Virus record (IMG/VR): IMGVR_UViG_3300032050_000870
Span: 1 to 22,530 of that record
Source of the DNA: a virus
Reading direction: 5' to 3' (one strand)
DNA length: 22,530 bases
The translations under genes and the position numbers were made by a program. The notes beneath the pieces are model-generated. The model was not told where the DNA came from. It searched no databases and saw only the letters and a program-made list of their open reading frames with translations. Shown in pieces: positions 1 through 17,584 of this stretch (positions are counted from its first letter, which is position 1; the number at the start of each line of letters is the position of its first letter).

Positions 1-340
1 CCTTGATATAATCCAAATCATTATCCTTCATCTTCTGGAAAATACCACGGAGCGATTCCACGATAGAAGTACGTAGCGTATCGTCCTTGACCGACTTGTT
101 CATTTCAATCTTAAAGACTTCCAACGTCGGAAGTACCTTATAGTCATCAAAATAATCCAAAGTCGTTTCTACAATCCATTGATTCGCTTCCAACTCAAAA
201 TAGTTTGGGTTGATAACGTCAAACGATTGTGCAACAAAGTCCGGCGAGTTCAACATCGCAGCAACAGCCTTAGACTGAAAACTGGGACCGAACTTTGCTA
301 GAGTGTCTACGTTCTTATCGTACTGCTTATGATTTACCAT
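1..340 (-). CDS. Replicative DNA helicase, T4 gp41-like (5' part only)
   Basis: Partial gene: 113 residues are visible from the ATG at 340, and the rest lies beyond the left edge. I translated it directly from the minus strand. The visible part matches the helical N-terminal domain of the T4 gp41/DnaB-type hexameric helicases: a motif around residues 31-50 (SPDF...NPNYFE) followed by helices around 'DDYKVLPTLEVF' (65-76). T4 gp41 has a comparable pattern near its N-terminus. The Walker motifs would be outside the window, so helicase activity is not shown here. The start overlaps the end of the FEN nuclease gene by 14 nt, so the two are probably translationally coupled within the ssb-recA-fen-helicase transcript. 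Expected role: unwinding DNA at the fork with primase and SSB. An unrelated protein with a similar N-terminal fold is possible, but the neighbours favour helicase. Confidence 0.7.
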   Translation of the reverse strand, partial: MVNHKQYDKNVDTLAKFGPSFQSKAVAAMLNSPDFVAQSFDVINPNYFELEANQWIVETTLDYFDDYKVLPTLEVFKIEMNKSVKDDTLRTSIVESLRGIFQKMKDNDLDYIK

Positions 341-1367
341 AATATCTCGCTAGGGGCGTAAAAGTAAACGTAATCCATTCGTCATAGTTTTGGATACTAC
401 TAATAATATTAGTACGTACCATAAGTCGTGTCAAGTCCGACTTACGAAGTGGAGGACAACTTTCTTCAAATTTATGTAATATCTTCATCTTTGCATCAAT
501 ATTAATATCTACATCACGTAAATTCATCAGTTGCATATTTCTATTTACAATACTACTATTATCTAATATACTCTCTATTACCTTAGGTTTCTTTTTAATA
601 TCAGTATATTTTTGTTCAATTAGATTCAGATTGACCTCAACATTTGGGTCCGCGAATTCTGGAACGTATTTTAATAATGTTTTTTCACCTGCTCCCTTGA
701 TTCCATCAATGTTGTCACTCTTGTCACCAAGTAGTGAACGGAAGAATACAAAGTTGTCTGGATGTACACCGTATGTTTCCAGAATAATATCCACATCAAA
801 TGTCTTTTTCTTGACGGGATTATATACCTTGACGTTTTCATTAACCATCTGTAAAAAATCTTTATCAGTAGAATAAATAATAGATGTCCCACCATTCTTC
901 GTGACCAACTCCGACATATATGCAATAGTATCATCTGCTTCAATATTATCCAGAGCAAGAATAGAAACGGGTAAACATTCCACCATCTCCACCAGAGATA
1001 CGAGTTGATACTTCATATTCTCTTTTTCTTGTTCGTCTGTGGTCATATCATACGACCGATTCAACCGAGTCGGTGGTTTCCGATTTGCCTTGTATTCCTT
1101 GTATATCTTACGCCGACGCTGTGACCCACCTTTACCATCAAATACCAATACAACTCTGGTAGGCTTGAAACTACGAATAGCGAACCCCAAAGATTTCATG
1201 AATCCCGCCATGCCACCGATATGGTTACCATTATCATCTAACGTAGGAATTGCTGCGTAACTTCTCATAAACGTATTCAATGCGTCAACAATAAGGACAC
1301 GGGAATTAAATCCCGTATCCTTACTGTCAAATTGCATCTCATTAAACGCCTTCAATAAATCAGTCAT
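327..1367 (-). CDS. 5'-3' exonuclease / flap endonuclease (T4 RNase H-like FEN)
   Basis: This 346-aa protein is a FEN-family nuclease, expected to remove RNA primers and 5' flaps on the lagging strand. Metal-ligand acidic residues are in family order: D28 (VLIVDALN), D77 (LVFDGKGG), E143/D145/D146 (IEADD), D168 and D170 (STDKDF), then D215/D218 in GDKSDNI. A helix-hairpin-helix-like DNA-binding loop follows (GIKGAGEKT, 222-230). T4 Rnh is of similar size (about 305 aa). The start codon overlaps the 3' end of the recA gene by 8 nt (ATGACTGA), and the 3' end overlaps the helicase start by 14 nt, so expression is probably coupled to both. The 3' half is much more AT-rich than recA next door. The family assignment is firm; whether it acts mainly as RNase H or as flap endonuclease cannot be read from sequence. 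Confidence 0.93.
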   Translation of the reverse strand: MTDLLKAFNEMQFDSKDTGFNSRVLIVDALNTFMRSYAAIPTLDDNGNHIGGMAGFMKSLGFAIRSFKPTRVVLVFDGKGGSQRRRKIYKEYKANRKPPTRLNRSYDMTTDEQEKENMKYQLVSLVEMVECLPVSILALDNIEADDTIAYMSELVTKNGGTSIIYSTDKDFLQMVNENVKVYNPVKKKTFDVDIILETYGVHPDNFVFFRSLLGDKSDNIDGIKGAGEKTLLKYVPEFADPNVEVNLNLIEQKYTDIKKKPKVIESILDNSSIVNRNMQLMNLRDVDINIDAKMKILHKFEESCPPLRKSDLTRLMVRTNIISSIQNYDEWITFTFTPLARYYGKS

Positions 1368-2520
1368 TTAGTAATTGCTTTTTAGATGGTGATACTTCGT
1401 CCTCATCCTCTGCGGCTTCCTTGTTAATCGCAGATGGGTCGAAGTCCTTCTCGTACTTCATAATGAGTGCTTCGCAAATCTTGTCATACAAGTCAGCTTT
1501 CCGTTCTTGGTCAGCTTCGAGGAACGCAGGGAATTCCTTACCTTGGAACTTCTCGTCGTTATAGGAATACCACGCACCTGCTTGCTTGACGATACCATTC
1601 TCCTTCAAGACATCCAACCAACTGCTGTAGTCATCAATACCACGATTGAAATAAATGTTGAATTCAGCCTCACGATATGGCGGACCCAAACGATTCTTGG
1701 TGATGACCGCCTTTGTAGTGATACCAATGATGTTACCTGCCGAATCCTTCAACTTACCAATCTGTGACAGACGGATACGAGTCGAAGCGTGGAATCCGAT
1801 TGCCTTACCACCAGAAGTCGTATACGGGTCAGAGAACGCAGGAGCGTTCATCTTCAAACGTAACTGATTGGTGAATACGAGAGCAATCTTTTCACGACCT
1901 AACAGATTCGTAATCTTCCGCATTGCCTTACTGATAATGATGGACTTTGCAGTTGCATATCCATCCTTATTGAAGTCCGCAGCCATTTCGGTCTTGGTGG
2001 AAGCAGCGGCAACAGAGTCAACCACAATAGTCACCAACTTATCTTTCTTTGCAGATGCACGAACCTTCTCAATGATGTTCACGATAGAGTCAAAGATATC
2101 TTCAACCGTATCGTGCTGAACATAAACGAGCTTCTTCATATCTACACCAACCGCAGAGAAGAATTCATCATTGACGGCGTTTTCCGTATCAATAAGAACC
2201 GCAACACCACCACGCTTCTGTGTGGTAGCAATCAATGAAGCACCAACAAGTGACTTACCAGATGCTTCCAATCCAGTCAATTCCGTGATACGACCGGCGG
2301 CAATACCACCGTTCGGACGATTACTGATTGCGATATCCAACATCGTATTTCCCGTGGAAATGAAATCAGTCAAATCCGTAGGAGTCTCTTCCTCACCATC
2401 AAGGAAGTAAGCAACTTGTCCATCTTTATATAATTTATTCAAGCTATCTGCGATAACTTGTGCCAATTCATCTCTATCTGCCGATGGACTGGACTTCTTT
2501 GTTTTAGTTTCTTTTGCCAT
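1360..2520 (-). CDS. uvsX: UvsX/RecA-like recombinase
   Basis: This RecA-superfamily strand-exchange ATPase is 386 aa from the ATG at 2520. I prefer that start over an in-frame ATG seven codons upstream because AAGGA sits 5-6 nt before it (ATAAGGAATCATATG). Counting from this start, Walker A is GLEASGKS (83-90), the catalytic Glu is probably E113 (LIDTEN), and Walker B is VTIVVD (163-168). A loop-2-like region with FTNQLRLKM and the TSGGKA motif follow. The C-terminus is rich in acidic residues and Lys. Expected role: forming a presynaptic filament on ssDNA for recombination-dependent replication and repair, working with the adjacent SSB and the FEN/helicase genes. It lies just downstream of a hairpin terminator, so its transcription probably depends on read-through or on an unrecognised promoter. 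Base composition is close to 50% GC, like ssb. T4 UvsX is 391 aa, so length fits. Confidence 0.93.
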   Translation of the reverse strand: MAKETKTKKSSPSADRDELAQVIADSLNKLYKDGQVAYFLDGEEETPTDLTDFISTGNTMLDIAISNRPNGGIAAGRITELTGLEASGKSLVGASLIATTQKRGGVAVLIDTENAVNDEFFSAVGVDMKKLVYVQHDTVEDIFDSIVNIIEKVRASAKKDKLVTIVVDSVAAASTKTEMAADFNKDGYATAKSIIISKAMRKITNLLGREKIALVFTNQLRLKMNAPAFSDPYTTSGGKAIGFHASTRIRLSQIGKLKDSAGNIIGITTKAVITKNRLGPPYREAEFNIYFNRGIDDYSSWLDVLKENGIVKQAGAWYSYNDEKFQGKEFPAFLEADQERKADLYDKICEALIMKYEKDFDPSAINKEAAEDEDEVSPSKKQLLND

Positions 2521-2539
2521 ATGATTCCTTATATGTAAC

Positions 2540-2593
2540 AAAACACGCAGGGACTAGGTAGTTTTGAGGCTACCTAGCACCACTACGTGTTTT
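2540..2593. terminator. Two-part hairpin terminator between ssb and recA, possibly bidirectional
   Basis: The gap between ssb and recA contains a nested inverted repeat. The inner stem CTAGGTAG/CTACCTAG (2554-2561 with 2570-2577) is a perfect 8 bp with an 8-nt loop. The outer stem AAAACACG/CGTGTTTT (2540-2547 with 2586-2593) is also a perfect 8 bp, separated from the inner stem by an asymmetric internal loop. On the minus strand the hairpin ends in a T-rich tract (CGTGTTTTGTT), as expected for an intrinsic terminator after ssb. On the plus strand it ends GTGTTTTTGG, so it could also act in reverse. It would reduce recA-fen-helicase transcription relative to ssb, as is sensible for a protein needed in large amounts. 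Confidence 0.75.
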
Positions 2594-2600
2594 TGGTTAA

Positions 2601-3389
2601 TTAATCGTTGAACAACTCGTCAAACGCATCAACTGCGTTCTTGACGTTCTCCTTCGGAGCTGCTGCCGTAACAGTCTCAGACTTGGGAGCTTCAGCTTCA
2701 CGGGCGGGAGTGATGACCGCATTATCGGGGTCAAGATACTTCTCAAGCGTGACCTTCAGTTCGTTGTAGGTCGGCTCGGTGTAAAGTTCCTTGATGTCGG
2801 GCTGTTCAGAGAGCCATACCTTCATCTGAGCTGCGTCAGTAGAAAGCGGAGTCTGTGACGGCTTGACCTTCACAGAAGTCTTAGCAAAACTTGTGTCCGA
2901 CTTCTCCTTCGGAATGTATTCCACTACGATGTCACGACCAGTCTTGGGGTCGGTGATATCGCCGTAATCAGGGTCGGAGATGTACGAAAGAAGTTCCTGA
3001 TAGACCGTCTTACCGAACGAATAGAAACGAACACCCTTATCCTCTTCACCACGAACGATGACAGGAATATAGGTACGGAGCTTCGGCATAAACGGACGAG
3101 CCTCAGCATAGCGCTCCTTCGGGTCACGGGTCTGGTCTGACTTCAGTGCGTCAGCAAACTCCGCAATCGGGTCACGATTACCATACGAGAGAGGCGAGAG
3201 ATGGGTCTTGTTGCCAAGATAGTGGAAGTAGAGTTCAATAAAGGGATTCTCGGGGTTATCCTTCCACGGGACGATACGGATGACGGTCTTTCCTTCCTTC
3301 GGCTTCCAGATAGCGGTATCGCGGTCCCCACCGCCGACACGCTTGAAACTGTTGAGCTTACTCTTTAATGCGTTGATGTCTAATGCCAT
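2601..3389 (-). CDS. 32: Single-stranded DNA-binding protein (T4 gp32-like)
   Basis: This 262-aa protein resembles T4 gp32, which coats ssDNA at the fork and recruits replication proteins. It has a basic N-terminal segment (MALDINALKSKLNSFKRV), a central OB-fold-like core starting near 'TVIRIVPWKDNPENPF', an Ala/Glu/Lys-rich linker around 228-250, and a short acidic tail DAFDELFND (254-262) typical of SSB protein-interaction tails. It lacks any cysteine, so the Cys/His zinc site of T4 gp32 is absent. A strong SD (AGGAG, 7 nt before ATG) and a consensus promoter about 65 nt upstream suggest high expression, and a terminator follows directly. The leader carries three regularly spaced repeats that could be an autoregulatory site. 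GC content is higher than in neighbouring genes (32 of 60 bases in 2641-2700). Confidence 0.88.
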   Translation of the reverse strand: MALDINALKSKLNSFKRVGGGDRDTAIWKPKEGKTVIRIVPWKDNPENPFIELYFHYLGNKTHLSPLSYGNRDPIAEFADALKSDQTRDPKERYAEARPFMPKLRTYIPVIVRGEEDKGVRFYSFGKTVYQELLSYISDPDYGDITDPKTGRDIVVEYIPKEKSDTSFAKTSVKVKPSQTPLSTDAAQMKVWLSEQPDIKELYTEPTYNELKVTLEKYLDPDNAVITPAREAEAPKSETVTAAAPKENVKNAVDAFDELFND

Positions 3390-3492: not shown

Positions 3493-3894
3493 CTAAAAGT
3501 TTAATATTTCTTTTATTTTGGTTTTAACTGTTTTTAATTGACCATGTGCGGTTACTAAAATAGAATTCTTTAATTCATCCCAATCAATCTTATAGGACTT
3601 ATCTATTTTACCGCCGTTCTTACTGGCGATTAATGCGTTTAATGCATTAATGGTATATATCGTATTCGTTTGTTTCTTTCTATGGACGGATATGGTTGAC
3701 GCAGGTGGTGCGTACTGCGATTTCAATGACCCCGCAATAATATTGTAGGTCAAAATTAATTGATTCGCATCATCCACGTTTTCCAATACATAGATGTTAT
3801 TGAAAGCTAACGTATATGAGTTTTTTATAAGTTCAACGTTTTCTTCCAATTTATCTACTGGAATAAACGTGCATAATAACTGAGTTTCGTTCAT
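3493..3894 (-). CDS. Unknown 133-aa protein downstream of the polymerase
   Basis: I do not recognise this protein with certainty. It is a 133-aa soluble protein without signal peptide or membrane segment. It begins MNETQLLCTFIPVDKLEENV, has a hydrophobic/charged alternating N-terminal half, a basic 'VHRKKQTNTIYTINALNALI' motif (around 90-110 by eye) and a Lys-rich C-terminus. It follows the DNA polymerase gene by 62 nt and precedes the ssb promoter, so it probably belongs to the replication transcript started at 5257-5285. Its own SD is poor (ACGAG upstream of ATG), and a TGATACTTATA motif lies 34 nt before its start. The basic central region could bind nucleic acid or a replication partner. 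A RegA-like translational repressor would fit by location and size, but I see no sequence match to T4 RegA. Confidence 0.75.
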   Translation of the reverse strand: MNETQLLCTFIPVDKLEENVELIKNSYTLAFNNIYVLENVDDANQLILTYNIIAGSLKSQYAPPASTISVHRKKQTNTIYTINALNALIASKNGGKIDKSYKIDWDELKNSILVTAHGQLKTVKTKIKEILNF

Positions 3895-3956: not shown

Positions 3957-5228
3957 CTATATTTTATATAGGTTTAGTTCATTATAGTTATGACCACGAT
4001 ATTGACGAACGGGAAACCCACCCGCACTCAATAAGTTGGACACGTTTTCCATAGAATCCAGTTCATCGTTGTGAACATCCAATAGAATTGCATCATAGGT
4101 ATATAAAACAACTTTGGATTCAAACATCCCCAAGAAATTACAAACATCTTCAACCCGTGATATAGCTTCTTCGGTTTCAGTCAATTGCATCATATAATTA
4201 AATACTTTATTCTTGGATGGGTCGGTAAGTACCACTTTGCGACCCGTTTGCGACAATACAAATCCATTGTGACGGTATTCGTCCCATAACTTAGAGGAAT
4301 ACTGCTTAATCCTTTGGAAGAACTCTACACCACCCGTATCGTCGGATTGTCCATACATCAGTGCAAATGTTCTGGCTTTAGACTCCTCATATTGCTCCTC
4401 TGTTACTTCATCAACTCCATAGTATTGTTGAGCGAGGTAGGTGTGAAGTGAAGTGGATGGGAGTTGATAGCCAACTAGTTTTCCAGCCAATCGTAAGTGA
4501 AATGCCTCATAGTCAAACTGAACAAGAGTTCCGTGCTTCCCAAATCTGCTGACAAACTTTTCACGGGTACCATCATTCTTATTCAGCGCGGCAAAGTTGA
4601 TACCACCGAACGCATTACTTGGACGGCCAGTAGAGGTATAAATGTTATAATCCGAATACACCAATCCATCGGTGGTTTGAATACCAGACTTTTCAATACT
4701 GGTTAGCGTAGGAATAGTAATCTGATTAATAAATTGAAATGCCGATTCTTGTTCGGTAGACTCATATCGTTTATACAGATGTTCGCAGTGTTGGAGAAAT
4801 GCTTCTGCGGTTTCCACCCATGAAGTCAATGGGATACTATAGTGAAGATTCTTGAACTTGAATTGGTTCTTAATCTGATGTATACCCATCGTATAGAACT
4901 CACGATAAATTGGGATGACATCATTGTTGAGATGTAAGAGTGTTGCCAAATCAACCACATTGACTGCATTAGTGAGATGACGAAGTTCCTTTTGGTGCAG
5001 AGTGACCAGTTTATGTGCGTGGGAAAGGTCAATCTCAAAGTGTGGCGCATCTGGATGATTGACAGATACCGTATAGAACGTCCCATCTTCAAATCGGAAA
5101 TGAATTGAGGACACCTTGTTCTGGACGGGATGTAGAAACGCATCAACCGCTACGAGATAGACATAGGCAGTCTCTTCTCGTAAGCGGTCTGTGAGTTTTG
5201 TAATATCGTCTAGATTTGTAATAACCAT
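3957..5228 (-). CDS. Divergent family A DNA polymerase (PolA-like)
   Basis: This 423-aa protein has the core motifs of family A polymerases and should extend DNA primers. Motif A is FDYEAFHLR, with catalytic D239. The O-helix has K284 followed by F288 and Y292-G293 (KARTFALMYG). The N...Q motif is NYMMQ (344-348). Motif C is YTYDA, with catalytic D379. TGRPS (200-204) matches the TGRLS motif before the palm. Compared with Klenow, several conserved residues differ: E710 to H244, R754 to Y280, H881 to Y378, E883 to A380. The first about 150 residues resemble a shrunken 3'-5' exonuclease domain (VAVDAFL near 26-32, then FEDGTFYTVSVNH) in which the DxE motif has lost its Glu, so proofreading is probably absent. 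T4-like phages normally use a family B polymerase; none is seen here. It has its own promoter at 5257-5285 and precedes the 133-aa gene. Confidence 0.85.
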   Translation of the reverse strand: MVITNLDDITKLTDRLREETAYVYLVAVDAFLHPVQNKVSSIHFRFEDGTFYTVSVNHPDAPHFEIDLSHAHKLVTLHQKELRHLTNAVNVVDLATLLHLNNDVIPIYREFYTMGIHQIKNQFKFKNLHYSIPLTSWVETAEAFLQHCEHLYKRYESTEQESAFQFINQITIPTLTSIEKSGIQTTDGLVYSDYNIYTSTGRPSNAFGGINFAALNKNDGTREKFVSRFGKHGTLVQFDYEAFHLRLAGKLVGYQLPSTSLHTYLAQQYYGVDEVTEEQYEESKARTFALMYGQSDDTGGVEFFQRIKQYSSKLWDEYRHNGFVLSQTGRKVVLTDPSKNKVFNYMMQLTETEEAISRVEDVCNFLGMFESKVVLYTYDAILLDVHNDELDSMENVSNLLSAGGFPVRQYRGHNYNELNLYKI

Positions 5229-7236: not shown

Positions 7237-10200
7237 TTAGCCGGTAGGAGCGGTAGTTACTTTAAGAGTTTGTCCTTGTTTTATAAGTCTTACTAATTGT
7301 TGAATAGTCGGACCACTGCGGCGTAACTCTCCATTAACGGGAGTAATATTATTTGCCGTCTGCAACTGTCTAATAAGTTGCGTCGTTCGTGGACCAACAA
7401 TACCATCCGAGTTTAGTGAATTATCGGTCTGAAACTTTTTAATTACTTCAGTATGTAATGACCGTTCTAATAATGAGGTTGAATTAATTGTCGTGGGGTC
7501 TGGAAGACGTTCGGCAAGTGGTTTATCAGATGAAGGTGGTGTTGTAGGTCCGACAGGCGGTGAACTGGGTGGAGCCACTGTAGTGGCGGGTGGCAGTGCA
7601 TCTGGATAATATCGGAATCTTCCTTGAATTTTTGTCGTCCATCCTCGGTCTGCCGAAATCTCATGATTAATTTTAGTTACGCTATAATATCCCTTTGACA
7701 CCACTTGTGGTACTCTGTCTACTAAAAATGACTGAAGTAATTGAATTCCACTGATACCTGGTAATGTTAAATCAATTAGTATTTTAGTTAAATTAGAACT
7801 GTTAAATGCGTGTGCGGTAGGTACGTCTCTAGTACCTGCTTGTATTTCATCCTCACCATTTCGTGAGTCAAGATTCATTTTACGCAACATATTAGCAGGA
7901 TTCAATTCCACATATTCCAAAGCACTACCAAAATCAACATACGAACTTAATCCTGCGCCAAGAACACCAATACCGGCGGGGTCCGCTGCAATACGTGAAG
8001 ACAATTCCCGTATTGCTCGTTGTCTATCAGATTCAGCTCGTCTAATACAAGCTTGTACACCGGATTCGGTCAGAGGTAGTCCGCGAGTTCTTCTTTGTGC
8101 GACTTGTTCTGCGGTCAATTCATTTGCTTCGTATATTGAGTTATCAATATTTAAACGATTAATATCATCTGGAAATGTTAAAGGTACTAATTTTTTACCG
8201 TCATTACCTTCTGTTGGACCAGTTAATAAACAACTTTCAACCGTATACCTGAATGTCTCATCTATTCTGTCTTTTGCTTCTTTGAAAAGAAGTGCAGGAG
8301 TTTTATTACAAGGCCGTACATTAGTATTAGAGGGTTTGCAGTCTGGTGTTACAGAACTTCGCTTAAATATTCGTAATGTATCTAATTCCGGTGTTCCCAG
8401 TGCATTAATAGTTCCTTTTTCTGCCGAGCCACCGACTCCTGCTATGACTTGGGTTGCTATAGCAGTAGGTAAATCTAAATTAAGTGACAGGTCTATAAGT
8501 TCACTAGCAAACGTTTGGTTGTCTTCCAGTATTCTATTACGTTCATTAAATACATACATATATTTGGGCGTATCACCGGTACCAAATTGAGTTTGTAAAA
8601 TTGTATTTTTATTTTGTTGTGGATTTGTTATACTGGTAAGTAACGCGCTTCTATCTTGACGGGCGGTCACTGTTTGGTTCGGTAATCTCTTGGATAATCC
8701 CATGTCTACAACATGAAGTCCAGGATAACGTGAATCATCACTACTAATAAGTTGTAAGTTCCAGTATCCTTCTGTTGCAGAATTCATAGCAACCAACAAC
8801 GCCTGTAATCCTTGAGATATCGTATCCGTTCTACTAAACGCTTCAATAATTGCGTTGGTATTAATCCAAACACCACGAGTTAATGTTGCGGTGCCCGACT
8901 TGTTTTTGTCTCCTCCATTTACCGGCTCAAACGCAAACTTATCACCACCCAGTCTTGATACAATTGGTGATGCAGGAATTTCTCTCCCCGCATTTTCTGC
9001 TCTATAAGTTGCTTTTATTAACTCATAGTCGTTTCTACCATCCTCAAATACTTGCGCAGTCGGATTAACTACGAGCATAGTATTGGGATTTGTGGACCTA
9101 AGTGCAGGATGGTATCCTACTTCATTAGGTATCAATTTATCCGTCGCATACTCTATGGGATTTAATACAGTTAAGGGATTTATCAGTGTTGCTTTTATTG
9201 TGTCTCGTGAGTCTTCTGGAAACAAACTTGCAATACCAAACACCGTATCATTTAATAAAACGTATACGAAAAATCTCCACGTTATTAAATACGCCTTCTC
9301 TCCTCTAGCTCCTTGCTGTGCGGCAGTTGAAGAATCTGCTACCGGGACTATATCATTTTTCCACGTAGCATTCGTTAAATAAAATTCTATAAATTTTGCA
9401 AAAGTTTTTTCTTTCCATGCACTGGTAGTGGAGAAAAACTCACGTACATCTACTGCATTACATTTCTCTGCTGCGTTTGCGCAATTAGACTTTAATGCAG
9501 ATTGTACTGTTGGTACTTCAAATTGTTGGATTGAGTGCATAACCAAGTCTATTTCAAACACATTTTCTCGTGTTTGCTTTATATTAAACTTTACTGCATA
9601 TCCTACTAGAATGTCATAATTACCATAACTGTCGTATACCCGACGATATACAGGACTTTGACGTACTTGCTGTTTGTAGGTAAGAATGTCTTGTAACTCT
9701 GCCGCAATTCCACCTTCACCTTCAATCGGTCTGTTCCAATTAAAAAAATCAATTACATTTCTGTCGTCTTGAGAGGTCAGTCTTCCAAATTCAAATACTA
9801 ATGGAGTACCGGAACGTAAAAAATACTTTAACAATGTATCTACTTGCCCTACAGAGTACGCCACAATTTTCATGTTAATTCTGAACAGACCCCCACGAAC
9901 TCCCATCGGTCCTGCCAAACTTCGTTCTATAGAAACATTTGTTATACCGGGGTAGGGGATAGTATCGGGTTCGCCTTCGGTATTTCTTGCTAATAAACCC
10001 AAAACTCTCTGTGGAGTTGTTGATGATTTATTATCTGGTGGTATAATATACGAACCAACTATACTTCTGGGCGTAGTCTGTGTTTGTGTTGCGTCTGTGT
10101 TTGTGGTAAAGATGTTAGCTAATGGGTTGTATAATTGTTCCGCCCGTAGTATACTAGAATAGTTGTGTAGTCCGATAGACGGACACCACCCCACGGTGTT

Positions 10201-11235
10201 TATATTTACATTTCTAAAATCGGGTTCGTCTCGTTGGACTACATCAGTTTTGTCCACATACATCAACGATGTTAAGTTAACAAAGGGCATGTTTACATTT
10301 ACCATGTCCGTTGAGAATTTTCTTTTGGTTAGTTCGTATTGAATTTTTGGATGAAAAGATTCAAATGTTGATATATACGGAGTTATAGGTGGTAGAGCTC
10401 CGCCGCCGGGCGCAGTAAGAGTATTTGGTACCGATGTTACGGGTAATTCCGCTTGTTGCGCGTCAATTGCACTTCCTTTAGTCCTGAGGAAAGGTTCGGG
10501 GTCTATTGAGGTAAATTCACCCCCACCCACACGATTTTCAATCGTCGTTGACTTTGGTGGAAACTGTCCTCGACGAGGAACACGAAGTTCAAAGTGTAAG
10601 TGGGGTCCACCTGTACGTTCACCGGTGTTTCCAACACGACCAATCGGCTGCCCTGCCTGAACTACATAAAAAGCATTTTTATATTCACTTGTACCACGCT
10701 GTTCTGTCGTACTACTTTGAAGTATCGCACTTCCGCTTATATTTGTTTTCCCTCGTAGTATAAACGTTTTACCTTCTCTATCTAAAGCACTCGCCTGTGA
10801 TTCTTGTACCCAGTTTTGAAACGAGGTGGAGTATACGTATCTATTTACTTCAATCGTGGTAGCCTGTCCATAACTTGCGTTCGGATTGTCTTTTAAATGA
10901 TAATAATGTGTTCTATATACTTGTGGGGGCTCACCTGCAACCGTGGGTGCGTCATGTTCTAAAATAATATAATTTCCGGCATCAGCATCATTTCCCCATT
11001 GAACCACTCTCCCAGCTGCAACTGCGAGTACCGGTGTACCCTCAGACGCTTTATTGTTAGTGGTTGTACTATTAAAATCTATAGCGTAGTGATTGTGGGG
11101 TGTTAAGGTGTTTCCACCTCTAGTTCGTATATTTTCACGGTAAACACCGAACCCTAAACTTCCTCGTGGAAAGTCAGAAGTTGTTAATCCCAAAATTGGT
11201 AGCGAGTCAAACTGAATCCTAATCGTAGTCGTCAT
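7237..11235 (-). CDS. Baseplate hub protein with M23 endopeptidase and peptidoglycan-binding domains
   Basis: This 1332-aa protein has three parts. Residues about 27-220 are an M23/LytM metallopeptidase: zinc ligands H49 and D53 (HYAID) and H214, with catalytic-type H113 (YYHL) and H212 (HLHFE). All are present, so it is probably active in cutting peptidoglycan cross-links during injection. A roughly 65-residue insertion separates YYHLKDN from the GQPIGRVGNTG strand. The long centre (about 290-1200) has segments such as 'VSIERSLAGPMGVRGG' and 'VGYAVKFNIKQTRENVFEID' that look like baseplate hub/tube-fold domains. A Pro-rich linker leads to a C-terminal peptidoglycan-binding domain (about 1255-1325; VIKKFQ...DGIVGPRT). 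T4 gp5 instead carries a lysozyme domain. It overlaps the LysM gene by 4 nt (ATGA). A function in tail-tip hub and cell-wall penetration is strongly implied; the match to gp5 or gp27 is inference. Confidence 0.88.
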   Translation of the reverse strand: MTTTIRIQFDSLPILGLTTSDFPRGSLGFGVYRENIRTRGGNTLTPHNHYAIDFNSTTTNNKASEGTPVLAVAAGRVVQWGNDADAGNYIILEHDAPTVAGEPPQVYRTHYYHLKDNPNASYGQATTIEVNRYVYSTSFQNWVQESQASALDREGKTFILRGKTNISGSAILQSSTTEQRGTSEYKNAFYVVQAGQPIGRVGNTGERTGGPHLHFELRVPRRGQFPPKSTTIENRVGGGEFTSIDPEPFLRTKGSAIDAQQAELPVTSVPNTLTAPGGGALPPITPYISTFESFHPKIQYELTKRKFSTDMVNVNMPFVNLTSLMYVDKTDVVQRDEPDFRNVNINTVGWCPSIGLHNYSSILRAEQLYNPLANIFTTNTDATQTQTTPRSIVGSYIIPPDNKSSTTPQRVLGLLARNTEGEPDTIPYPGITNVSIERSLAGPMGVRGGLFRINMKIVAYSVGQVDTLLKYFLRSGTPLVFEFGRLTSQDDRNVIDFFNWNRPIEGEGGIAAELQDILTYKQQVRQSPVYRRVYDSYGNYDILVGYAVKFNIKQTRENVFEIDLVMHSIQQFEVPTVQSALKSNCANAAEKCNAVDVREFFSTTSAWKEKTFAKFIEFYLTNATWKNDIVPVADSSTAAQQGARGEKAYLITWRFFVYVLLNDTVFGIASLFPEDSRDTIKATLINPLTVLNPIEYATDKLIPNEVGYHPALRSTNPNTMLVVNPTAQVFEDGRNDYELIKATYRAENAGREIPASPIVSRLGGDKFAFEPVNGGDKNKSGTATLTRGVWINTNAIIEAFSRTDTISQGLQALLVAMNSATEGYWNLQLISSDDSRYPGLHVVDMGLSKRLPNQTVTARQDRSALLTSITNPQQNKNTILQTQFGTGDTPKYMYVFNERNRILEDNQTFASELIDLSLNLDLPTAIATQVIAGVGGSAEKGTINALGTPELDTLRIFKRSSVTPDCKPSNTNVRPCNKTPALLFKEAKDRIDETFRYTVESCLLTGPTEGNDGKKLVPLTFPDDINRLNIDNSIYEANELTAEQVAQRRTRGLPLTESGVQACIRRAESDRQRAIRELSSRIAADPAGIGVLGAGLSSYVDFGSALEYVELNPANMLRKMNLDSRNGEDEIQAGTRDVPTAHAFNSSNLTKILIDLTLPGISGIQLLQSFLVDRVPQVVSKGYYSVTKINHEISADRGWTTKIQGRFRYYPDALPPATTVAPPSSPPVGPTTPPSSDKPLAERLPDPTTINSTSLLERSLHTEVIKKFQTDNSLNSDGIVGPRTTQLIRQLQTANNITPVNGELRRSGPTIQQLVRLIKQGQTLKVTTAPTG

Positions 11236-15680: not shown

Positions 15681-15697
15681 TACTTATATAAATATCA
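15681..15697 (-). promoter_or_regulatory. 17-nt AT-rich motif before gp26-like gene, candidate late promoter (copy A)
   Basis: The minus strand reads TGATATTTATATAAGTA, starting at the SNF2 stop codon (TGA) and ending 25 nt before the gp26-like ATG. A second copy at 19841-19857 differs at one base. No TTGACA box is present. T4 late promoters use a single TATAAATA box near -10, and this motif carries TATATAAG here (TATATTAG in the second copy), so it is a candidate late promoter for structural genes. Its plus-strand complement contains an exact TATAAATA. Confidence 0.45.
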
Positions 15698-17584
15698 ATC
15701 ATCCAGATTTTTAATAGAAATATCTTGATTGTACACGGTACTTAATTTCTTGACAAATTCCTTAAAATACGATTTTGACCGTTCTGGTGTGACCAATGCT
15801 CCGTCCACAACCAAGTCTGCCACCTGCTGCTTCTCTTTGAGGATATCTCGCATATATTCATCAATCGTATCGGCACATAACATATAATACACCTGTACCT
15901 GACCTTTTTGACCGATACGGTGGGTACGGTCCTCTGCTTGTTCGTGATTTGCAGGCACCCAATCGCAATTTAGAAATACCACAGTATCTATCTGATGTTG
16001 AAGTCCGTCAATACCCATACCTGCCGCCATCAAACTGAATAGTCCAACTTTAGCCTCACCTTTGGTCAATCGGTCAATGGTATGTTGACGTTCCTTACTA
16101 TTCATTTCACCTGTCAGGAGTGCTGCCTTATCTCCGTACTGTTCAGCCAAGAACTTGAGTGGAGCGATATAATTACTGAAAATAAGGATGGGTTTATCGT
16201 TATCCAAGAATTCGTCCACCATTTCTACCAATCGTGGAATCTTCTTTTCAATTAAGAAGTTTTGAAGTTTCGGCATATGACCGATAGTGGGTTTCTCTAC
16301 CTTCCACCGACCAAACACTTCTCGGAGTAATTCTTTGTATTGTTTCTGTTCGTCCTTTGTTAATTCCACATACAAGTCATTCCGTTGCTTTGCGGGAAGT
16401 TCTGTAAGAATCTGGTCTTTCTTGCGGCGAATGACCAAATCTTTTGTACGGTCATGCAAGTCTTGGAGATTACGAGGTGCTTCTCCTTTCCATCCCCCGT
16501 AACGTTGAGTAAAATGGAAAAAGTTATTGAAACGTTCTTTGTCAAGGAAGTTCAACAAAGCAAATGCTTCTATTGGACGAGACATCACGGGAGTACCCGT
16601 AAGGAAGATACAGTACTTCGTTTTGATACCTGGATATTTTCGTCGTTCTTTATAGGAGCCTAAAATAGACTTTGCTCTGATGGTTTGTCGGTTTTTGAGA
16701 TAGGTGGCTTCGTCACAAACGAGGAGGTCAAAATCTTGCTTCCGTAAATCGCCAACCACTTTGCCAACGGCATCATAATGAACAATATGAAACTGATTGT
16801 TAAGCTTTCCGTAATAATTTTTGCTATCCCATATCGTAGACTCCTTTCCGGTAAACTTTTTAATTTCACGTTGCCAATTCACCACAACGGAGAGTGGGCA
16901 GACGATTATTGTTTTGAGATTCTTATATTGTGCGTACCCAATTGCTTGGGCAGTCTTACCCAGCCCAGGCGCATCCGCAATGAGACACCGACCATCTGCA
17001 CGTTCCACGAACTTGACGCCGACTCTCTGATACGGATAGAGTTGCAATTGCATTCCTTTGATACTGAAATCAATATCTTCTTGGACTCTGATTTCATCCA
17101 AGTCCTCTCTACGGTCCTTAAGTTTTTCCAGCAGAGACAGTACCTTGTCATCACACTTGATATTGGTTGGACCGAATACATTGAACGCCTTTGGAAGATG
17201 GACCGCAGGGAACTCCCACCACTTTTCTTCACCATTCCACTTTCGTCCGTCCACTTCATACTTGAACTTTGCCATCAAGTTGGGATTATATGGCATGACA
17301 ACGACCGCAGTTTTACTATCCTTCAGATGGATAGAAACTACGGTGTCGGTAGAAACTTGTGGTGTGAAAGTGGAAGTCGGATTATTCGTCTTTGCGATTT
17401 TGAGGTGGGAAATATCTTCACCCCTGAGCGTCAGTTGTGCCGCTTCTTTCCAGACTTCGGGTATACCAACCGTTTGTGTCATCCATTGAAGATATGACTG
17501 GTTGTTATAGTATACGTGCGCAAGTGAATAACCTTTAAACTTCCCGAACGTGATTATCGCACGTTCGGCAGATTCGTGTATCAT
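15695..17584 (-). CDS. SNF2-family helicase, SMARCAL1/HARP-like
   Basis: This 629-aa superfamily 2 ATPase has the SNF2 motifs in order: Q-like PYQ (184-186), motif I DAPGLGKT (204-211), motif II DEAT (291-294), motif III LTGTP (328-332), motif V region SLMAAGMGIDG (517-527) and motif VI QAEDRTHRIGQ (549-559). Before the motor, residues 1-40 resemble a small 'FGKFKGYSL...YLQWM' module found on some exonucleases, and residues about 95-140 (MPYNPNLMAKFK...KWWEFP) resemble the HARP domain of SMARCAL1, an annealing helicase. Expected role: remodelling or re-annealing forked or recombination DNA, comparable in place to T4 UvsW though of a different subfamily. It overlaps the upstream 72-aa gene by 4 nt (ATGA) and shares its promoter at 17828-17855. 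DNA-processing genes inside a structural region are unusual here and imply separate timing. Confidence 0.9.
   Translation of the reverse strand: MIHESAERAIITFGKFKGYSLAHVYYNNQSYLQWMTQTVGIPEVWKEAAQLTLRGEDISHLKIAKTNNPTSTFTPQVSTDTVVSIHLKDSKTAVVVMPYNPNLMAKFKYEVDGRKWNGEEKWWEFPAVHLPKAFNVFGPTNIKCDDKVLSLLEKLKDRREDLDEIRVQEDIDFSIKGMQLQLYPYQRVGVKFVERADGRCLIADAPGLGKTAQAIGYAQYKNLKTIIVCPLSVVVNWQREIKKFTGKESTIWDSKNYYGKLNNQFHIVHYDAVGKVVGDLRKQDFDLLVCDEATYLKNRQTIRAKSILGSYKERRKYPGIKTKYCIFLTGTPVMSRPIEAFALLNFLDKERFNNFFHFTQRYGGWKGEAPRNLQDLHDRTKDLVIRRKKDQILTELPAKQRNDLYVELTKDEQKQYKELLREVFGRWKVEKPTIGHMPKLQNFLIEKKIPRLVEMVDEFLDNDKPILIFSNYIAPLKFLAEQYGDKAALLTGEMNSKERQHTIDRLTKGEAKVGLFSLMAAGMGIDGLQHQIDTVVFLNCDWVPANHEQAEDRTHRIGQKGQVQVYYMLCADTIDEYMRDILKEKQQVADLVVDGALVTPERSKSYFKEFVKKLSTVYNQDISIKNLDD

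Follow-up and report, generated by a model that had tools for sequence, protein, structure and literature searches.

A compact divPolA1-type DNA polymerase homologue with a near-absent thumb and a co-inherited small partner protein in large aquatic phages

The gene at 3957-5228 on the minus strand of the analyzed DNA (hereafter the window, the whole stretch of 22,530 nucleotides) encodes a compact family A DNA polymerase homologue which almost certainly belongs to divPolA1, a type of phage polymerase first described in 2024 (Yutin et al., Virol J 21:200, PMC11348598). The best explanation of the data as a whole, to which we assign a probability of roughly 0.5, is that this divPolA1 member has lost most of its thumb and its exonuclease site and serves, in addition to the replicase of the phage, as an accessory polymerase of low processivity. 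New here, relative to the main text of that paper, are the wider distribution of the family, an active-site signature found throughout it and a small protein which is co-inherited with it. The gene and its conserved neighbours are as follows.

3957..5228, minus strand: divPolA1-type compact family A DNA polymerase homologue, 423 aa (PF00476, AlphaFold2, family alignment), consisting of a degenerate 3'-5' exonuclease fold (residues ~1-160), a near-absent thumb and palm/fingers (~180-423)
3493..3894, minus strand: small partner protein, 133 aa, with an invariant HRKKxxNxxYTxNxxN core (synteny, co-occurrence)
2601..3389, minus strand: gp32-like single-stranded DNA-binding protein (PF08804, E 2.2e-13; phrog_1192, E 3.3e-17; conserved neighbour)
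1360..2541, minus strand: UvsX/RecA recombinase (PF00154, E 4.2e-51; phrog_97, E 3.8e-73; conserved neighbour)
327..1367, minus strand: 5'-3' exonuclease of the FEN / T4 RNase H type (PF02739, E 3.7e-32; conserved neighbour)

The Pfam profile PF00476 (DNA_pol_A) matches the 423-aa ORF with E 1.1e-8 and 34.9 bits, barely passing the cut-off of 34.3, and the palm aspartates of motifs A and C are present along with this family A profile. The AlphaFold2 model (pLDDT 88.8, pTM 0.88) has a Klenow-like fold, and in a Foldseek search of the PDB it matches Klenow structures best (E 7.9e-20, TMq 0.80-0.82, the Klenow fragment of E. coli Pol I being at 0.82). A founding divPolA1 protein from Flavobacterium phage immuto is 29% identical to the window protein across 91% of the query (E 7e-42), and the immuto divPolA1 proteins were recovered among its relatives. 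In a phylogenetic tree the compact proteins and immuto gp001 form one clade, which is split from seven canonical polymerases with 100/100 support. The clade sits on a branch of 3.3 changes per column, too long for its sister group to be named. The sequence-only reading of the gene product as a reduced enzyme of family A whose active site is altered is supported.

According to the 2024 description (PMC11348598), divPolA1 is present in 14 phages including immuto, whose proteins are among the founders of the family, and each of these phages also has a regular DNA polymerase of family A, B or C. The thumb is reported there as truncated, the 3'-5' exonuclease as inactivated and the replication genes downstream as conserved; as to the role, the authors lean to replication. 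The window gene and its relatives match this description in the homology to immuto, the thumb, the exonuclease, the downstream replication genes and, as seen in the relatives, the extra polymerase. The window gene differs in coming from another phage lineage, one with a T4-type family B polymerase (PolB). The main text of the 2024 paper holds no discussion of the His/non-Arg/Tyr signature, the small partner or a wide distribution. In the literature that we searched, the name divPolA1 occurs only in that paper and its preprint, and biochemical work on any member was not found. The divPolA2 proteins of barbaviruses (PMC11348598) are similar in being an extra PolA homologue beside PolB with no normal thumb; they are described, however, as having a globular domain at the N-terminus and gene surroundings that vary, and barbaviruses are absent from the matches of our homology search with the window protein. 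As a separate observation, a VOG annotated as DNA polymerase I is found in 28 moraphage genomes besides PolB (PMC12619734) and could represent divPolA1 of a further jumbo lineage.

Residue correspondences come from aligning the protein with E. coli Pol I, for which a profile alignment was also used, and with T7 gp5. Every residue said to be kept in the window protein, that is the catalytic aspartates D239 and D379, K284, F288 and Y292-G293 of the O-helix and the N344/Q348 pair, is found at its position, and with E. coli Pol I the protein shares the aspartates of motifs A and C and the equivalents of Lys758, Phe762, Tyr766, Gln849 and Arg668. Both alignments also agree with the proposed replacements: H244 is at the position of E710, Y280 at that of R754 and the motif C sequence Y378-D379-A380 at that of HDE 881-883. 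The compact family is without E710, R754, H881 and E883, all present in E. coli Pol I.

For conservation we used 58 dereplicated, compact full-length relatives (about 290 loci); the IMG/VR searches had yielded 51, 142, 312 and 178 confirmed relatives in overlapping sets, up to 80 being retained each time. D239, K284, F288, Y292, Q348, D379 and R202 are identical in 58/58, and the same is true for H244, E351, T352, Y376 and Y378. At the steric-gate position all 58 have His where the canonical references have Glu (7/7), and motif C is Tyr-Asp and not His-Asp in every member, with Ala or Ser at the position of A380. From the O-helix pattern R...K...F..YG the K, F and YG are kept and the Arg is absent across the whole compact family: Y, T, I and L occur at position 280 among the 58, V was also seen in another family alignment, and R never occurs. 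As far as the alignments go, the constant feature at this position is the loss of Arg, not the gain of Tyr. The only rows with E, R and H in the family alignment are four canonical polymerases, which had been fetched on purpose. Among relatives at 73-89% identity dN/dS is 0.05-0.14, indicating purifying selection; since the changes are moreover fixed throughout the family, they are not drift. The argument that HDE is nearly invariant stands only in part: YDA is present here, but the Glu also varies in canonical phage enzymes (HDS in SPO1-like phages, CRP-3 and PSU4; HDQ in immuto gp199) and therefore carries less weight than was claimed. From what is generally known of Klenow, H244, Y280 and Y378 may affect sugar and phosphate recognition.

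The near-absent thumb of the protein had been overlooked in the sequence-only reading. From IE.G to TGR there are 22-40 residues in the compact members compared with 126-236 in canonical enzymes (126 in E. coli Pol I), from which we conclude that the thumb is almost gone. The distance from motif A to motif C is also shorter, 137-145 residues as against 170-224 (177 in E. coli Pol I). The DxE motif of the exonuclease, previously described as broken, is replaced by L25-V-A27 in the alignment to E. coli Pol I and D501 aligns to a Thr; positions 26 and 28 do not hold conserved acidic residues in the 58-member alignment either. The compact enzyme is thus devoid of the exonuclease metal residues which E. 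coli Pol I has. E. coli Pol I carries its 5'-3' exonuclease as a fused domain; in the window the exonuclease has a separate gene in the same cluster.

T4 relatives normally have a family B polymerase, and it had been proposed that the compact enzyme either replaced this polymerase or is a second one. No family B polymerase was found among the ORFs of the window, which means nothing because the window is a 22.5-kb virus record and itself a fragment. Longer contigs of relatives do contain this gene: G001 (178 kb) and G006 (91 kb), whose compact genes are 89% and 88% identical to that of the window, each carry a family B polymerase too, in G006 about 10 kb from the compact gene on the same strand and past the point where the window ends. 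Overall, a PolB of 831-862 aa is encoded by eight of the IMG/VR contigs (78-178 kb) and by the Microcystis phage Mel-JY01, where it adjoins clamp-loader genes; it is also present in four further genomes of 180-238 kb, and a 484-kb phage has split PolB matches. The replacement of PolB, in favor of which only the window lacking this gene could be cited, is thus rejected, its probability being negligible. All PolB sequences inspected retain the FDIE, SLYPS and DTDS motifs and, judged by these, look intact. Although T4 gp43 is of an unrelated family, polymerases of its type occur in the same phages as the compact enzyme and are probably the replicase here. Immuto and five relatives have a canonical PolA of 778-791 aa where the T4-like relatives have PolB, and the idea of a second polymerase has therefore held up in both major phage groups. 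In some contigs, for example G002, G003, G005, G016 and G031, the compact gene was seen alone; these contigs may be incomplete. Taken together the compact polymerase is very probably accessory and not replicative. What had been observed on this gene is confirmed, and its interpretation is partly supported. Near the canonical PolA of immuto (L136 and L003, record 18.6-37 kb) QueC, QueD, QueE, FolE and DpdA are annotated, a large 7-deazaguanine DNA modification set.

Across lineages the gene order is polymerase, small protein, gp32, UvsX, 5'-3' exonuclease and helicase, the last being a DnaB-type helicase gene which comes after the exonuclease gene in the relatives. With several hundred contigs compared with 14 published genomes, the family is distributed far more widely than published, and many large aquatic phages carry it. 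A cellular origin was rejected, as a search of 84,980 prokaryote genomes gave just three contigs, every one of them from a MAG and probably of phage origin. In Mel-JY01 (L002, 19935-21161 and 25330-26370) there is an apparent annotation mix-up: the gene named DNA polymerase I lies where the 5'-3' exonuclease gene belongs and matches that enzyme, and the label hypothetical protein has gone to the actual homologue of the polymerase. Elsewhere in the window, 15695-17584 on the minus strand encodes a SNF2-type helicase (PF00176) that near its N-terminus has a stretch like the ExoX C-terminal domain and is located within the tail/baseplate block, and 7237-11235 on the minus strand encodes a 1332-aa tail/baseplate protein in which we recognize by eye a putative M23-peptidase-like N-terminus and a peptidoglycan-binding-like C-terminus.

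The small protein encoded downstream of the polymerase belongs to a family with hundreds of members in IMG/VR, whose invariant residues include H71, R72, K73, K74, N77, Y80, T81, N83 and N86. In 226 of the 246 eligible loci its gene lies downstream of the compact polymerase and shares its strand. Among fetched loci with both genes, not all of them independent as some contigs were fetched twice, this arrangement is found in 283/283, with the two genes adjacent in 190; in one subgroup (L108-L135 and L235-L311, 77/283 loci) 1.5-6 kb of other genes lie in between. When we searched with the small protein alone, 39 of the 53 loci with at least 1.5 kb of upstream sequence held the compact polymerase, and in the locus with the longest upstream sequence among those that did not (L339) the polymerase gene is situated farther out in the contig. 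Within 50,697 phage records the small protein is present in six, exactly the six which have a near-full-length compact polymerase. The small protein is thus co-inherited with divPolA1. Fusions of the two proteins were not found among the loci examined.

A Pfam/PHROG search with the small protein gave only weak matches and no convincing family. Its AlphaFold2 model (pLDDT 93.8) is predicted to be mixed alpha/beta, and a fold search of the PDB with this model gave no match at E<=0.001. Going by the model, the protein apparently represents an unannotated family with a new fold. UvsY (PMC7824862) and gp59 are helical proteins. Either of them is therefore an unlikely identity for a small protein with a predicted mixed alpha/beta fold.

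How the compact enzyme would act can be outlined as follows. With its thumb largely gone, its 3'-5' exonuclease site lost and a fixed alternative set of residues in its active site, it would be made alongside the normal phage replicase and would extend or fill short DNA stretches with low processivity in recombination-dependent replication and repair. Its partners would be the products of the neighbouring genes, namely UvsX, gp32, the helicase and the 5'-3' exonuclease, and the small protein might be a dedicated subunit or a factor holding the DNA. The kept catalytic aspartates and O-helix Lys argue for nucleotidyl transfer, the missing thumb and proofreading for short, distributive synthesis, and the neighbouring genes point to recombination-dependent replication or repair, a setting equally compatible with either of the two. 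We propose this specific role of a short-patch accessory polymerase tentatively, at somewhat less than even odds. The two proteins may contact each other, against which speak the lack of fusions and the 1.5-6 kb between their genes in one subgroup, and it is our guess that the small one supplies the missing grip on DNA. In a bolder version, which we regard as unlikely, the two proteins would be obligate subunits of one polymerase, the small one replacing the thumb, and the His/non-Arg/Tyr site together with the invariant E351-T352 would provide a new handling of the sugar and phosphates of the incoming nucleotide.

It is also conceivable that the protein is catalytically dead and has a structural or regulatory function, binding primer-template or gp32-coated DNA and organizing a recombination/replication complex in the manner of the pseudo-polymerase ImuB. 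Losing the equivalents of Arg754, Glu710 and His881 could cripple catalysis, and their loss is fixed; the dead exonuclease, the missing thumb and the separate replicase in the same phages would fit as well. However, both catalytic aspartates and the O-helix Lys, which would be expected to go first, are invariant in 58/58, and ImuB itself is described as catalytically inactive. We consider a dead protein rather unlikely.

The His found invariantly at position 244, where all seven canonical references have the Glu that blocks the 2'-OH, is a point for a specialised polymerase with altered substrate choice, be it translesion synthesis, ribonucleotide use or non-templated addition, and an enzyme devoid of thumb, exonuclease and proofreading would suit such a task. 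A bulky His could, however, itself act as steric gate. DnaG-type primases are encoded in the largest records, which lowers the probability of the compact enzyme being a primase and makes a priming role unnecessary; altered substrate choice we rate as quite unlikely. A part in the main replisome, for example in lagging-strand synthesis or in extending primers before the replicase takes over, is more doubtful still. The fixed neighbourhood of single-stranded DNA-binding protein, recombinase, 5'-3' exonuclease and helicase speaks for it, all the more as the regular polymerase is found in variable context, but the compact enzyme has neither thumb nor proofreading, and PolB is there with its motifs preserved and, in Mel-JY01, next to the clamp-loader genes.

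To our knowledge, hardly any DNA polymerases that naturally do without a thumb have been described. Should the divPolA1 family prove active, it would show how little of the right hand suffices for a polymerase and which natural replacements there are for residues that in family A are held to vary hardly at all. The family occurs widely among large aquatic phages together with an unannotated small protein of apparently new fold, and in Flavobacterium phage immuto, which is in culture, the pair is accessible to genetics.
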